From: Thermanaerovibrio acidaminovorans DSM 6589
Lineage (GTDB): Bacteria > Synergistota > Synergistia > Synergistales > Synergistaceae
NCBI RefSeq assembly: GCF_000024905.1
Contig: NC_013522.1
Coordinates: 124,001 to 188,000, forward strand
Direction: 5' to 3'
Length of the DNA: 64,000 nucleotides
Shown here piece by piece: positions 28,681-33,780 of this stretch. Under the pieces are notes generated by a model. It saw only the letters and a list, made by a program, of their open reading frames with translations. It was not told the DNA's origin and did not search any database. The translations under genes and the position numbers were made by a program. The number at the start of each line of letters is the position of its first letter. Position 1 is the stretch's first letter.

Positions 28681-29567
28681 GGGAGCTCTTCGGGCGAGGA
28701 AGGCCCGTCATATCCTTCGAGATATTCCCCCCCAGGGGGGGAGTTCCGGTTGAGGAGGTCTACAGGACCCTGGGGGCCATAAAGGACCTAGCGCCGGACT
28801 TCGTGAGCGTCACCTACGGAGCGGGGGGAAGCACCCGGGATGCCACGCTGGAGATAGCCTCCACGGTCAAGAACCGGTTCGGCCTTGAGGTGATGGCCCA
28901 CTGCACGGGCCTGTGCCACACCCCTCCGGAGGTTCACGAGATGGTGGAGGACCTGATGTACGAGGGGGTCCACAACCTCCTGGCAATGCGTGGGGATCCC
29001 CCCAGGGACCGCCATGTGCCGGAGGGTCCCAGTTTCCCCCATGGGTCGGATCTCATCGGGTACCTGAGGCGAGCGTTTGGGGATGAGGTGTGCATCGCCG
29101 CCGCCGCCTACCCGGAGGGTCACGTGGAGGCCCGGGATATGGAGGAGGATCTAGCTTTCCTTAAGCTCAAGGTGGACATGGGGGCGGAGCTCCTCATAAC
29201 CCAGCTATTCTTCGACAACGAGATCTTCTACCGCTTCCTGGAGAGCATAGGGCGCCTGGGGATCAGGGTTCCGGTGTGTGCCGGGATCTTCCCGGTGCTG
29301 AACGCCCGGCAAGTGGAGAGGATAGTGTCCCTCTGCGGGGTCTCGTTCCCTCCGAAGTTCACCCGGATGGTGGCCCGGTATGCGGACGATCCCGCCTCCC
29401 TGGCGGAGGCGGGGGTGGCTTACGCCACGGAGCAGATAGTGGACCTCCTGGCCTTTGGTGTTGATGGTATCCACATATACACCATGAACCGGCCGGACAC
29501 CACCAGGAGGATAATGAACAACATAGGTCTGGTGAGCCGCCGGGCTGTTGCGGGCTCCGGCGACTGA
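28671..29567 (+). CDS. metF: 5,10-methylenetetrahydrofolate reductase
   Basis: A 298-residue FAD-dependent TIM-barrel enzyme that makes 5-methyl-tetrahydrofolate for MetH. Conserved blocks are SFEIFPPRG with the catalytic Glu near the N-terminus, FVSVTYGAGGSTRDATLEIA, NLLAMRGDPPRD, and ELLITQLFFDNEIFYRFLE, and the CAGIFPVLNARQVERI segment. ATG 28671 follows GGGAGG and lies inside the end of metH (10-nt overlap), so translation is coupled. No MTHFR C-terminal partner (MetV) is seen. It is normal in length and composition. Confidence 0.95.
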   Translation: MFIRELFGRGRPVISFEIFPPRGGVPVEEVYRTLGAIKDLAPDFVSVTYGAGGSTRDATLEIASTVKNRFGLEVMAHCTGLCHTPPEVHEMVEDLMYEGVHNLLAMRGDPPRDRHVPEGPSFPHGSDLIGYLRRAFGDEVCIAAAAYPEGHVEARDMEEDLAFLKLKVDMGAELLITQLFFDNEIFYRFLESIGRLGIRVPVCAGIFPVLNARQVERIVSLCGVSFPPKFTRMVARYADDPASLAEAGVAYATEQIVDLLAFGVDGIHIYTMNRPDTTRRIMNNIGLVSRRAVAGSGD

Positions 29568-29576
29568 GTGTATGAT
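29548..29576 (+). promoter_or_regulatory. promoter of the hydrogenase-maturation leader / small RNA
   Basis: TTGCGG (29548-29553), 17-nt spacer, TATGAT (29571-29576), partly inside the end of metF. The predicted start is about 29582. Confidence 0.55.
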
Positions 29577-29581
29577 AATCC

Positions 29582-29727
29582 GGTAACGACCCGGAGGTTC
29601 TTCCGACGGGGAGTTGAGATTGTCTTAGGCCGACCGCGAGGGGTGAGCCCGAGGGGGAGGGGTCAAAGGGGACTTGTGGGTCCCGGAGCGTGTTGTGCGC
29701 CCTCCGATCCTTCGGGGGGCGCTTTTT
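29582..29727 (+). ncRNA. candidate structured leader or small RNA with terminator
   Basis: Between metF and the regulator gene lies a stretch of about 145 nt with its own promoter and a strong terminator at the end. It contains several local hairpins, for example GGGAC/GTCCC around 29669-29684 and GGA/TCC near 29593. I tested it by eye against 6S, SRP, TPP, FMN, cobalamin and SAM elements and saw no match. It may be a riboswitch-like attenuator for the hydrogenase maturation genes or an independent small RNA. Confidence 0.4.
29697..29727 (+). terminator. intrinsic terminator upstream of the TM1266-type gene
   Basis: A 10-bp stem with one G-T pair (arms 29697-29706 and 29713-29722, 6-nt loop) followed by TTTTT. 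It ends 28 nt before the start of the regulator gene, so read-through must occur if that gene uses the upstream promoter. Confidence 0.8.
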
Positions 29728-29755
29728 AATTTTGAATCCGTCGGGGGGATCGGTT

Positions 29756-30037
29756 TTGACGGTTTCCGGTGGGAGCAGGCTCGGGGTGGTGGCCATAGTG
29801 GTGGAGGACCTGGAGATGGTCCACCGGGTGAACTCGGTGCTCCACGAGCATGCTCAGATAGTGGTGGGCAGGATGGGCATCCCCTATCGGGATCGGGGGG
29901 TGTCGGTCATATCCCTCATAGTGGATGGCAGCAACGAGGAGATAAGTGCCATGACCGGCAAGCTGGGGCGAATATCGGGCGTGTCGGTGAAGGCCGCATA
30001 CGCGAAGCTGAGGGACGCTGGGGAGGGGATCGGTTGA
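29756..30037 (+). CDS. TM1266-family ACT-like protein, putative [FeFe]-hydrogenase system regulator
   Basis: A 93-residue single-domain protein with the ferredoxin-like pattern of ACT/NikR-C domains: LGVVAIVVEDLEMVHRVNSV, then the HEHAQIVVGRMGIPYRDRGV segment, then VSVISLIVDGSNEEISAM and the C-terminal GVSVKAAYAK. This matches the short family found beside hydE/G/F and named a putative iron-only hydrogenase system regulator. It has no DNA-binding domain. TTG 29756 lies 7 nt after a GGGGGG site. The stop overlaps the hydE start. A role in sensing a maturation intermediate or metabolite is unproven. Confidence 0.8.
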   Translation: MTVSGGSRLGVVAIVVEDLEMVHRVNSVLHEHAQIVVGRMGIPYRDRGVSVISLIVDGSNEEISAMTGKLGRISGVSVKAAYAKLRDAGEGIG

Positions 30038-31092
30038 GCTTGGTCAGGGATGAGGTGGAAATCAGGGAGCTGGTCTCGTCGATGGTTGGGGGGTATCTGC
30101 CGACCATGGATGAGATGGAGTTTTTGCTCTCCCTGGACTGGGAGGGGGCCCAGGTGCTCCTTGAGGGGGCCCGGAAGGTCAAGGAGGAGCTCTTTGGCCC
30201 GGAGGTTCACATAAGGGGGATCATAGAGTTCTCCAGCCACTGCTCCGGCCGGTGCCTGTATTGCGGCCTCAGGGCTGATAACCGGGACCTTGCCCGGTAC
30301 CGGATGGAGGAGGAGGAGATAGTCCGGTGCGCGGAGGAGGCCATAGGGGCGGGGTACATGAGCCTGGTGCTCCAGTCTGGGGAGGACGGCTGGTACGATC
30401 GCTGGACGTTGGGGAGGGTCATAGAGAGGATCAAGGGGATAAAGGACGTGGCCATCACCCTGAGCATAGGGGAGAGGTCCTACGAGGACTACAGGTACCT
30501 CAGGCAGGCGGGGGCGGACCGGTTCCTAATGAAGCACGAGACCGCCGACCAGGGTCTCTACGACCGGCTGCACCCCCATTCGTCGTTCCGCAGGAGGCTG
30601 GAGTGCCTGACGCAGCTCAAGGAGCTGGGCTACCAGGTGGGGAGCGGTTTCATGGTGGGCCTGCCGGGGCAGACCTTGAGGTCCATAGCGCGGGACGTGC
30701 TGCTGCTCAAGAAGCTGGACGTGGACATGGCGGGGATAGGTCCCTTCGTTCCCCATCCACGTACCCCCTTGGGGGATCAGCCGGCGGGGGATCCCTTCCT
30801 GGTGCTTAAGACCGTTGCCTTGGCCAGGTTGCTCCTGCGGCGTCCCCACCTTCCGGCCACCACCGCGCTTGGGGTGTTGGACCGGCGGATGAGGGACTGG
30901 GCCTTCCATGGGGGGGCCAATGTGGTTATGCAGAAGCTGGAGCCCCACCGGTACCGGCGGCTCTACGACATATATCCCAAGGGGGTAGGGGAGGAGAGGT
31001 CCATAGCGGAGGAGAGAGAGGAGTTGGAGAGGGCACTGGAGTCCATGGGGCTTCGGGTGGCCAGGGACAGGGGAGATGCGGTGAGGGTTTAG
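30034..31092 (+). CDS. hydE: [FeFe] hydrogenase maturase HydE (radical SAM)
   Basis: A 352-residue radical SAM enzyme needed for the dithiolate bridge/di-iron precursor of the H-cluster. The CX3CX2C motif is CSGRCLYC (about residues 70-77), preceded by IIEFSSHCSG. LQSGEDGWYDRWTLGRVIE and FMVGLPGQTLRSIARDVLLL are typical HydE blocks, as is IGPFVPHPRTPLG. TTG 30034 has GGGGAGGGG 6 nt upstream and overlaps the stop of the TM1266-type gene; a much longer in-frame extension upstream has no support. It is followed by hydG and hydF. Confidence 0.93.
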   Translation: MSLVRDEVEIRELVSSMVGGYLPTMDEMEFLLSLDWEGAQVLLEGARKVKEELFGPEVHIRGIIEFSSHCSGRCLYCGLRADNRDLARYRMEEEEIVRCAEEAIGAGYMSLVLQSGEDGWYDRWTLGRVIERIKGIKDVAITLSIGERSYEDYRYLRQAGADRFLMKHETADQGLYDRLHPHSSFRRRLECLTQLKELGYQVGSGFMVGLPGQTLRSIARDVLLLKKLDVDMAGIGPFVPHPRTPLGDQPAGDPFLVLKTVALARLLLRRPHLPATTALGVLDRRMRDWAFHGGANVVMQKLEPHRYRRLYDIYPKGVGEERSIAEEREELERALESMGLRVARDRGDAVRV

Positions 31093-31140
31093 GGGCCCGC
31101 CGCTTGTTTTTGAAGCCATATTGCATGGGGGCGATCTGAT

Positions 31141-32568
31141 ATGGGGGTTTTGAGCGCTAGGGCATTGGATACGGCGGACTTCATAGACCATGGCAGGATA
31201 ACGGAGGTTCTGGAGGCGGCCCGTTCCCGGGCCGGGGATGTGGGGTACCTGAGGGAAGTTTTGGCCAAGGCCCGTCAGGCCAAGGGGCTGGACCCCCAGG
31301 AGGCGGCGGCACTCCTGTCGGTTCAGGATCCCGCAATGGAGGATGAGATGTTCTCCCTGGCTAGGGAGGTAAAGGAGCGGATATACGGGCGCCGCATAGT
31401 GCTCTTCGCCCCCCTCTACGTGAGCAACCACTGTGTGAACGACTGTTCCTACTGCGGGTACAAATGCTCCAATCGGGGATTCGAGCGGCGGCGGCTGACC
31501 ATGGAGGAACTGGCGGAGGAGGTCCGGATCCTGGAGGGCCTGGGGCACAAGAGGCTGGCGTTGGAGGCGGGGGAGGACCCGGTGAACTGCCCCTTGGACT
31601 ACATCCTGGATTGCATAGGGACCATATACTCTCTCAAGTTCGACAACGGCAGCATAAGGAGGGTTAACGTCAACATAGCGGCCACCACGGTGGAGGAGTA
31701 CCGGCGCCTCAAGGAGGCCGGCATAGGTACTTACGTTCTGTTCCAGGAGACCTACCATCGACCCACCTACCGGGCGCTTCACCCTAGGGGGCCCAAGTCG
31801 TCGTACGACTATCACACCACCGCCATGGACCGGGCCATGGAAGCCGGGATAGACGATGTGGGGCTTGGGGTCCTCTACGGCCTGTACGACCACGTGTACG
31901 ACACGGTGGCCATGCTGTTCCACGCCCGGCACCTGGAGGAGCGTTTCGGGGTGGGGCCCCACACCATATCGGTGCCAAGGCTCAGGAGGGCCCACGGGGT
32001 GGACGTTTCCGCGTTCCAACTGGTGGACGACGAGGCCTTCAAACGCTTGGTGGCGGTCATAAGGCTTGCGGTGCCCTACACGGGGATGATCCTGTCCACC
32101 CGGGAGGACGCGGAGTTCCGGGACCAGGTGATCTCCCTGGGGATATCCCAGATAAGCGCCGGTTCCTGCACCGGGGTTGGGGGTTACGCGGACCACTACG
32201 GCCGTCGGGCGGAGGACGAGAAGCCCCAATTCGAGGTGGGGGATCACCGATCCCCCATGGAGATCATAAAGAGCCTCATGAGGGGGGGGTACATACCCAG
32301 CTACTGCACCGCCTGCTACCGGGAGGGGCGCACCGGGGACCGGTTCATGAGCCTGGCCAAGTCGGGGCAGATAGGCAACGTGTGCCAGCCCAACGCCCTG
32401 CTTACCTTGAAGGAGTTCCTCCTGGACTACGGTGATGAGGAGGCCAGGGAGATCGGAGAGCGGCTCATCGAGAGGGAGGTCAATGAGATCCCCCATCCCA
32501 GGGCTCGTGAGGCTGCGCTGGAGATGCTTCGCCGGGTGGAGTCCGGCGATCGGGATCTCCGGTTCTAG
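31141..32568 (+). CDS. hydG: [FeFe] hydrogenase maturase HydG (tyrosine lyase)
   Basis: A 475-residue radical SAM enzyme that splits tyrosine to give the CO and CN- ligands of the H-cluster. The SAM-cluster motif is CVNDCSYC with Cys98, Cys102 and Cys105. A second, C-terminal cluster motif is intact: Cys389, Cys392 and Cys415 (YCTACYREGRTGD ... NVCQPN), the CX2CX22C pattern that separates HydG from ThiH. ISAGSCTGVGGY and SYCTACYREGRTGDRFMSLA are standard. The length is normal. It sits 48 nt after hydE and 12 nt before hydF. Confidence 0.95.
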   Translation: MGVLSARALDTADFIDHGRITEVLEAARSRAGDVGYLREVLAKARQAKGLDPQEAAALLSVQDPAMEDEMFSLAREVKERIYGRRIVLFAPLYVSNHCVNDCSYCGYKCSNRGFERRRLTMEELAEEVRILEGLGHKRLALEAGEDPVNCPLDYILDCIGTIYSLKFDNGSIRRVNVNIAATTVEEYRRLKEAGIGTYVLFQETYHRPTYRALHPRGPKSSYDYHTTAMDRAMEAGIDDVGLGVLYGLYDHVYDTVAMLFHARHLEERFGVGPHTISVPRLRRAHGVDVSAFQLVDDEAFKRLVAVIRLAVPYTGMILSTREDAEFRDQVISLGISQISAGSCTGVGGYADHYGRRAEDEKPQFEVGDHRSPMEIIKSLMRGGYIPSYCTACYREGRTGDRFMSLAKSGQIGNVCQPNALLTLKEFLLDYGDEEAREIGERLIEREVNEIPHPRAREAALEMLRRVESGDRDLRF

Positions 32569-32580
32569 GGGGTAGCTGCG

Positions 32581-33780
32581 GTGTTGGACACACCCAAGGC
32601 CAACAGGCTTCATATAGCCATATTCGGCCGTCGCAACGCGGGTAAGTCGAGCCTCATAAACGCCCTGACCGGCCAGGATGCGGCTCTGGTCTCCAGCGAG
32701 CCGGGGACCACCACCGATCCGGTGATGAAGGCCATGGAGCTGTTGCCCATAGGTCCCGTGGTGTTCATCGACACCGCGGGGATAGACGACCAGGGGGAGC
32801 TGGGGCAGCTCCGGGTGGAGCGGACCCGCCGGGTGCTGGACCGGACGGACCTGGCTCTGCTGGTGGTGTCCCCCCCGGTCACGGACCTGTCCATGGAGGA
32901 GGGGTGGCTGGCGGAGCTTAGGGGGCGGGGGATCCCGGTGGTTGGGGTCTTCAACAAGAGCGACCAGGGGGAGCTCCCGGTCCAGTGGGTGAGCGGTCGC
33001 CTTGGGTTGCGGTTGACGCCGGTCAGCGCCCTTACTGGGGATGGGATACAGGAGCTTAAGGCGGCCATCCAGGAAGCGGTCCCGGAGGGCTGGGAGATGC
33101 GGACCATACTGGGGGACCTGATGGAGGCGGAGGACCTGGTGCTTCTGGTGGCCCCCCAGGACGTGCAGGCCCCAAAGGGCCGGCTGATCCTTCCCCAGGT
33201 TCAGGTCATGCGGGACGTGTTGGACCACGATGGGGTGGCCATGATGGTGAAGACCGGGGAGCTTCGGGGGGCTATGGAGCTCCTGGAGGCGGCGGGGAGG
33301 CGGCCGGATTTGGTGGTGACCGACTCTCAGGTGTTCCACCTGGTGAAGGACCTGGTGGGGCCCGATGTGCGGCTAACGTCCTTCTCCATCCTCATGGCCC
33401 GCTACAAGGGGGACCTCAGGACCCTGGTGGAGGGGGCCCGGGCGGTGGACCGGCTGGTTGATGGGGACGTGGTGTTGATCGCCGAGGCCTGTACCCATCA
33501 TCCCCTTGAGGGTGATATAGGCAGGGAGAAGCTGCCCGCCCTCATATCGGAGATGAGCAGGGCCCGGCTGGAGTTCAGGGTGGTGGCGGGCAACGACTTC
33601 CCCCGGGATTTGAAGGGGTTCTCGCTGGTGGTGCACTGCGGGGGCTGCATGCTGAACCGGAAGCACATGATGAGCCGGATCATGGCTGCCAGGTCCCAGG
33701 GGGTACCCATTACCAACTACGGGGTCCTGTTCGCCAAGCGGAGCGGGATCCTGGATAGGGCGGTTGTGGGGCTGATCTAG
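32581..33780 (+). CDS. hydF: [FeFe] hydrogenase maturation GTPase HydF
   Basis: A 399-residue scaffold protein that carries the di-iron subcluster to HydA. It has an N-terminal Era-like GTPase domain (P-loop GRRNAGKSS about residues 16-24, DTAGIDD, NKSD), a dimerisation domain, and C-terminal cluster ligands Cys304, His306, His352, Cys353 and Cys356 (ACTHHP and VHCGGC). These fit the CxH...HCxxC pattern. GTG 32581 is accepted; TTG 32584 is adjacent. It is the last gene of the maturation operon and is followed by a terminator. Confidence 0.95.
   Translation: MLDTPKANRLHIAIFGRRNAGKSSLINALTGQDAALVSSEPGTTTDPVMKAMELLPIGPVVFIDTAGIDDQGELGQLRVERTRRVLDRTDLALLVVSPPVTDLSMEEGWLAELRGRGIPVVGVFNKSDQGELPVQWVSGRLGLRLTPVSALTGDGIQELKAAIQEAVPEGWEMRTILGDLMEAEDLVLLVAPQDVQAPKGRLILPQVQVMRDVLDHDGVAMMVKTGELRGAMELLEAAGRRPDLVVTDSQVFHLVKDLVGPDVRLTSFSILMARYKGDLRTLVEGARAVDRLVDGDVVLIAEACTHHPLEGDIGREKLPALISEMSRARLEFRVVAGNDFPRDLKGFSLVVHCGGCMLNRKHMMSRIMAARSQGVPITNYGVLFAKRSGILDRAVVGLI

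Follow-up and report, generated by a model that had tools for sequence, protein, structure and literature searches.

The element in front of the iron-only hydrogenase maturation genes of Thermanaerovibrio acidaminovorans DSM 6589 is probably the 5' leader of the TM1266-hydE-hydG-hydF operon, acting as a transcription attenuator. Its anatomy can be read in the DNA and is conserved together with the operon. Other genera have a hairpin that covaries and is confined to hydrogenase maturation and associated genes. The comparative result outside the window (the whole 64-kb stretch of DNA that was analyzed) is the stronger one; judged from sequence comparison, it identifies candidate RNA leaders of new classes that precede hydF-operon and hydG genes of Synergistaceae. 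To our knowledge, how cells adjust assembly of the H-cluster, the metal center of iron-only ([FeFe]) hydrogenase that is built by the hydE, hydG, and hydF products, has been little described.

Anatomy of the leader

The window genome is a single contig of 1,848,474 bases. A profile search gave the gene order around the leader as a metH-like gene, metF, a TM1266-family gene, hydE, hydG, and hydF. The TM1266-family gene (29756..30037, plus strand), the first of the operon, encodes a putative iron-only hydrogenase system regulator; it matches TIGR03959 at 114.6 bits and also PF21699, and is a sequence relative of PDB 2NZC. Its start codon, TTG 29756, follows a directly read ribosome-binding site, GGGGGGAT, and spacer (29743..29755, +). 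The downstream genes hydE (30070-31092, start picked by eye), hydG (31141-32568), and hydF (32581-33780), all on the plus strand, scored above the cut-offs of TIGR03956, TIGR03955, and TIGR03918, respectively, and the whole block (30070..33780, +) is presumably controlled by the leader.

A promoter-like site at 29548..29576 (+), read directly, consists of TTGCGG (29548-29553), a 17-nt spacer, and TATGAT (29571-29576), and overlaps the metF stop codon TGA (29565-29567, +, read directly). TTGCGG matches TTGACA at 3 of 6 positions, and a consensus promoter scan did not list the site at 29548..29576. Support for the pair is thus comparative, as similar pairs with a 17-nt spacer are present in both congeneric genomes: TTGCCC/TATCAT in G002 and TTGTAC/TATCAT in G001. 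The transcript would start near 29583.

At its other end the leader runs into an intrinsic terminator (29697..29727, +; -24.3 kcal/mol in the scan) with an 11-bp stem, a 4-nt loop, and five U residues, the stem occupying 29697-29722 and TTTTT 29723-29727. With a strict rule (stem of at least 8, dG of at most -15 kcal/mol, then TTTTT), this terminator was the sole match on both strands of the 64-kb window, and none was found in 20 plus-strand shuffles. A looser scan over 2.5 kb gave 2 sites against 1.6 expected, so that only the strict scan is telling. The preliminary description of this DNA, a promoter, a leader, and a strong terminator ahead of the hydrogenase maturation genes, is confirmed by direct reading, by the strict scan, and by the congeners. 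Its placing of the terminator 28 nt before the regulator gene is equally correct, with the U-tract ending at 29727 and the TTG at 29756.

Between the promoter-like pair and the terminator lies a foldable leader of about 110 nt. The minimum-energy fold has a 5' hairpin (29584..29616, +) that found no comparative support within the genus in the alignment of the trio. It is followed by a core hairpin (29624..29668, +), identified in the trio alignment A5 and similar in topology in three folds, in which GCCGACC (29629-29635) and GGGGAGGGGT (29654-29663) are invariant across the three genomes of the genus. A second small hairpin, GGGGAC...GGUCC (29669..29684, +), was seen in the fold; in the folds of G002 and G001 a hairpin of different sequence occupies about the same place. 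When the 3' arm of the terminator was left out of the fold, a further hairpin using the 5' arm appeared at 29685..29705 (+). This candidate antiterminator may be mutually exclusive with the terminator stem, a possibility that we infer from the fold model.

The whole 168-nt region, terminator included, folds better than shuffled sequence (z of -2.6); once the terminator is removed, the leader folds no better than shuffles (z of -0.7 and -0.55). The term "structured RNA" in the preliminary description is therefore borne mainly by the terminator and by conservation, and the structure of the leader itself must be judged by comparison. The statement that the unit has no coding potential needs correction as well, since a 53-codon frame, whose start lies upstream of the predicted transcript start, is open through the whole leader, from GTG 29568, which abuts the metF stop, to TAA 29729, at the end of the terminator U-tract. 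This frame (29568-29729) is probably due to chance in GC-rich DNA.

Conservation within the genus

The comparison within the genus comprised three genomes, that of the window, G001, and G002. Both congeners have the order TM1266-hydE-hydG. metF lies upstream of the TM1266 gene in G001; in G002 (locus L087), no metH or metF match was found in the 3.5 kb upstream of the TM1266 gene. By eye, the gene in that place in G002 looks like one for an AbgT-like transporter.

The promoter-like pair, GCCGACC, GGGGAGGGGT, and the terminator GCGCCC...GGGCGC are kept in all three genomes, and the leaders of G001 and G002 are longer than that of the window. The intergenic comparison that had been suggested as a check thus finds promoter, core, and terminator retained within the genus, with the upstream metF absent in G002. 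As the unit stays with the hyd operon even where the upstream gene differs, it belongs to the hydrogenase maturation operon and not to metF. An identical stretch of 16 nt, CCCGAGGGGGAGGGGT, occurs in the window and in G002, a length not reached in any of 200 shuffles, and G001 and G002 share 14 nt (2 of 200 shuffles); the 10 nt common to the window and G001 are not significant (46 of 200 shuffles). When the 190-nt region was used as a DNA query against 60 relatives, the matches other than the window itself were mainly short and scattered, the sole useful one being the G002 locus.

Terminators upstream of TM1266 genes in relatives

In several Synergistaceae genera, the DNA upstream of TM1266 homologs has a terminator immediately ahead of the gene. 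Terminators were counted with one rule in the 160 nt preceding the TM1266 domain at 62 of 65 loci, leaving out L050 (weak match), L058 (wrongly centered), and L085 (contig edge), with locus groups that were set after the sequences had been read. They were present at 3/3 loci of the own genus, 14/17 loci of the hairpin class and 10/11 loci of the second class (genera g16 and g18), both described below, and 2/2 loci of genus g6. Elsewhere the counts were 0/8 for copies in frame with an ABC ATPase, 0/1 for g10, 1/16 for family f3, and 0/4 for f4 and f6 together. Shuffled controls had a terminator in 12/60 cases for the own genus, a high rate in this GC-rich group, in 16/340 for the hairpin class, and in 10/220 for the second class. 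The g6 loci (L044 and L045) have another leader, with a repeated GAGGCUGAA and a terminator before TM1266, and match neither of the models R2 and R3 introduced below.

A hairpin class on hydrogenase maturation genes

Eight other genera of Synergistaceae have a hairpin that covaries and contains two G.G mismatches; it lies ahead of TM1266-hydF, of hydG, or of the gene for a solute-binding protein. Alignment A1 of 16 TM1266 leaders from seven genera, that is, 16 of the 17 hairpin-class TM1266 loci (L075 was omitted, its core being identical to that of L071), defines a 12-bp hairpin with two 1x1 mismatches, mostly G.G, laid out as UCCG, 6 bp, GGGGA, loop, UCCG, 6 bp, and GGGGAAAG. In A1, 95.3% of the cells are paired and 8 of the 12 pairs are altered on both sides; the covariation score exceeded those of all 500 shuffles and of every slid register.

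The model R1, built from the A1 leaders, picked up copies absent from its training set immediately ahead of hydG in these genomes, the strongest at an E value of 1.9e-6 and the rest at 0.004-0.06, among unrelated weak matches. With these hydG copies added, alignment A4 holds 24 sequences (L062 and L034 were omitted as near duplicates, and the first copy only was taken from tandem leaders), and its pairing of 89.6% is again above all 500 shuffles. A search of 52 Synergistaceae genomes with the model R2, at E values up to 0.005, gave 30 places in 18 genomes. All 30 precede TM1266 (17 places), hydG (12 places), or the gene for an SsuA/NMT1-family solute-binding protein (1 place). Three of them are new and not close to the training set, two before hydG (L283 and L285) and one before the binding-protein gene (L284). 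We propose the hairpins of the relatives as a novel candidate riboswitch of the genes for H-cluster maturation.

Most hairpins of the class are followed by a terminator; this applies to the TM1266 leaders and, among the hydG leaders, to L104, L122, L144, and L242. In five other hydG leaders (L119, L120, L121, L124, and L142) the 3' strand enters the ribosome-binding region, and no terminator was seen by eye. Inspected in the same way, the hydG leaders L145, L146, and L244 have two class hairpins in a row ahead of a single terminator, an arrangement that recalls tandem aptamers.

An extension of the class to other phyla was considered and rejected. Applied to 80 HydG loci, R1 matched 5 of the 7 from Synergistaceae at an E value below 1 and gave nothing better than 0.89 at the 73 others; R2 gave one match, at 0.04, in seven Firmicutes genomes. 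Weak R1 and R2 matches away from hyd genes were rejected as well; they appear to lie inside or beside ordinary genes (8, 14, and 10 stretches were inspected, some of which were hyd leaders).

A second leader class

In genera g16 and g18, a second conserved leader precedes TM1266-hydG, with ACAGGUCCUUG, a hairpin, CGAGGCGACAUGUCAUA, and a terminator. These leaders (L046-L049 and L078-L084) lie about 60-200 nt ahead of the TM1266 gene; 10 of the 11 were aligned at first, and all 11 in alignment A6. In L049 and L083, a pairing between GCGACAUGU and ACAUGUCGC at the terminator would be possible. The corresponding model, R3, matches 13 of the 52 genomes, at one place each, and none of these is among the 18 genomes with R2 matches. 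The possibility that the second class is a form of the hairpin class was rejected on these disjoint sets of 18 and 13 genomes.

The window leader, known RNA families, and the new classes

The preliminary description had matched the RNA to no known class, and this is borne out by a covariance-model search against Rfam 15, which gave no match in the window at the gathering threshold. At the gathering score there was none in 18 homologous loci either, where two chance matches had E values below 1, and neither the hairpin class nor the R3 class has an Rfam match. Two weak matches to the window, PyrG_leader (20.4 of the 65 bits needed) and sau-6072 (18.8 of the 50 bits needed), involve mainly the terminator hairpin and U-tract, and were rejected as terminator resemblance only.

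The window leader is not a recognized member of the new classes. R1 scored 5.6 bits at 29617-29668, the best intergenic place but below 78 other places in the window; R2 had no match up to an E value of 3 at 29568-29755 and none in the window genome at 0.005, and R3 had no match in the window. The leader resembles the hairpin class in its position before TM1266, in the terminator behind it, in a similar hairpin topology, in a possible antiterminator, and in a G-rich 3' strand, GGGGAGGGGU in the window and GGGGAAAGG in the class. It precedes TM1266-hydEGF, as all 30 members precede TM1266, hydG, or the binding-protein gene. In the folds it differs in the apical part and in having a GA/G internal loop where the class has a G.G mismatch. 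The points of resemblance are compatible with a diverged relative of the hairpin class, a kinship that is putative. With the R3 leaders of A6 it shares the terminator, which in R3 stands directly before TM1266-hydG, but it differs from the conserved R3 sequence ACAGGUCCUUG...CGAGGCGACAUGUCAUA.

Riboswitches and attenuators that use an intrinsic terminator as expression platform are a known general kind of regulatory element. The elements described here are like them in that the leader lies upstream of the putatively regulated gene with the terminator directly before that gene, and in that the relatives have a conserved hairpin, a 3' strand able to pair with the terminator arm, and tandem copies in some hydG leaders. 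They are unlike them in that the present candidate has no Rfam match and that the window leader has diverged too far for the hairpin class to be recognizable in it.

Pairing with the terminator and proposed mechanism

Among 11 representatives of the hairpin class, the 3' strand of the hairpin pairs with the 5' arm of the terminator better than do shuffled arms or strands (Fisher p of 2e-6 and 6e-8, not corrected for kinship). Shuffles served as the control because the arms of other genera are uninformative, most cores being G-rich and most arms C-rich. The same pairing was not significant in the genus trio (Fisher p of 0.10 and 0.16) or in the window alone (p of 0.30 and 0.51). When folding stopped short of the terminator's 3' arm, an antiterminator appeared in G002, G001, L033, and L040, and no clear antiterminator using the conserved strand in L077 and L074; besides the window, 4 of the 6 loci folded thus have an alternative fold, as does the window itself.

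Transcript start, switching, and signal are the parts of the mechanism that we infer from these features. Transcription would start near 29583 and by default stop at 29727, and polymerase would read through into the operon when an alternative pairing sequesters the terminator's 5' arm. The partner in this pairing would be the small hairpin at 29685-29705 in the window, the conserved GGGGAGGGGU(GCUG) strand in the two congeners, and the GGGGAAAGG strand of the conserved hairpin in other genera. A small molecule, a metal, or a protein might tip the balance. As a formed class hairpin would hide the G-rich 3' strand, the hairpin would correspond to the OFF state, in which the terminator is free or the ribosome-binding site masked.

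Alternative explanations

The switch could be a protein, possibly TM1266 itself, that binds the leader and controls its own operon. We regard this as unlikely. TM1266 does follow the leader in all leader groups, and its NikR_C-like domain, fused to an ABC ATPase in three tested proteins, would suit a sensor. However, TM1266 genes of family f3 are without leaders (1 of 16 with a terminator), and the leader groups have no common sequence obviously readable by a single protein, whose binding here is putative.

It is quite unlikely that the terminator merely ends the metH-metF transcript, with the promoter of the hyd operon hidden in or behind it. The terminator lies 130 nt downstream of metF on the same strand, TTTAAT (29725-29730) overlaps the U-tract, and a promoter within the 28 nt past the terminator is conceivable. 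Against this, TTTAAT is not kept in the congeners and, by eye, has no -35 partner. Moreover, the hyd operon of G002 keeps the promoter-like pair, the core, and the terminator behind a different gene, and many other genera have terminators at the same place before TM1266.

The preliminary description had left open whether the element is a small RNA or an attenuator. Promoter-like pair, leader, and terminator do form a complete unit, as would be expected of an independent small RNA of about 145 nt acting in trans, yet we consider this very unlikely. The unit stays before the same gene across genera, and with TM1266 in all three genomes of the genus despite the changed upstream gene. In addition, the hairpin of the relatives enters the ribosome-binding region of hydG at five loci, which points to action in cis, and the 28 nt from the U-tract to the start codon leave the operon little room for a promoter of its own. 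The place of the unit before TM1266-hyd in 3/3 congeneric genomes, and comparable units of leader and terminator ahead of that gene in other Synergistaceae, favor the attenuator over a free small RNA.

Control of the terminator by translation of the 53-codon frame (29568-29729) is most improbable, for although the frame is open from GTG to TAA and its start abuts the metF stop (TGAGTG), that start lies upstream of the predicted transcript start with no evident ribosome-binding site, metF is not there in G002, and the frame has no obvious regulatory codon run.

H-cluster assembly, TM1266, and candidate signals

Under the preferred reading, a cis-acting attenuator, a broader and tentative idea is that Synergistaceae control assembly of the [FeFe]-hydrogenase H-cluster by at least two unrelated classes of RNA switch, R1/R2 and R3, with the Thermanaerovibrio leader a diverged member or a third class, and that all of them read a signal tied to H-cluster assembly. 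The R1/R2 hairpin would act sometimes in tandem and through either a terminator or a ribosome-binding site. Candidate signals would be a precursor, iron, a redox cue, or whatever substrate the linked SsuA-like protein binds.

In the literature, supplements excluded, we found no report of an RNA leader on hydE, hydF, hydG, or TM1266 genes, and none of these leaders was seen in passages of PMC8632094, PMC6429828, and PMC7736828. PMC6429828 examined the genome of Thermovirga lienii (Synergistetes) and lists a single riboswitch candidate, SLH; its main text does not use the word "hydrogenase".

A leader class that occurs at all 30 of its places on the hydF operon, hydG, or one linked binding-protein gene offers a direct handle on this control, and finding the signal sensed by the RNA would show what the cell monitors while it builds the hydrogenase. 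The class also links this control to TM1266, a family without an assigned function. According to Pfam, the TM1266 domain resembles NikR_C. At L021-L023, L025-L027, L030, and L031, a second copy of TM1266 shares an open frame with an ABC ATPase that precedes it, and Pfam confirmed the fusion in three proteins (L022, L023, and L027). Two of the fused ATPases, scanned against NCBIfam, are nearest to corrinoid, heme, and iron transporters. Given the NikR_C-like domain and the fusion to a transporter ATPase, one may reasonably guess, without going further, that the cue is a metal or a cofactor.

A further hint at the signal may come from the substrate of the solute-binding protein. In g7, g8, g14, and g15 a solute-binding-protein gene lies between TM1266 and hydF (for example, L028, 1854-2777). 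In G011, a gene for an SsuA/NMT1-family solute-binding protein (L243, from position 382) stands alone behind a class leader, and beside it (L243, 1375-2484, minus strand) is a gene that, by eye, looks like one for a nitrogenase component-1-like oxidoreductase.
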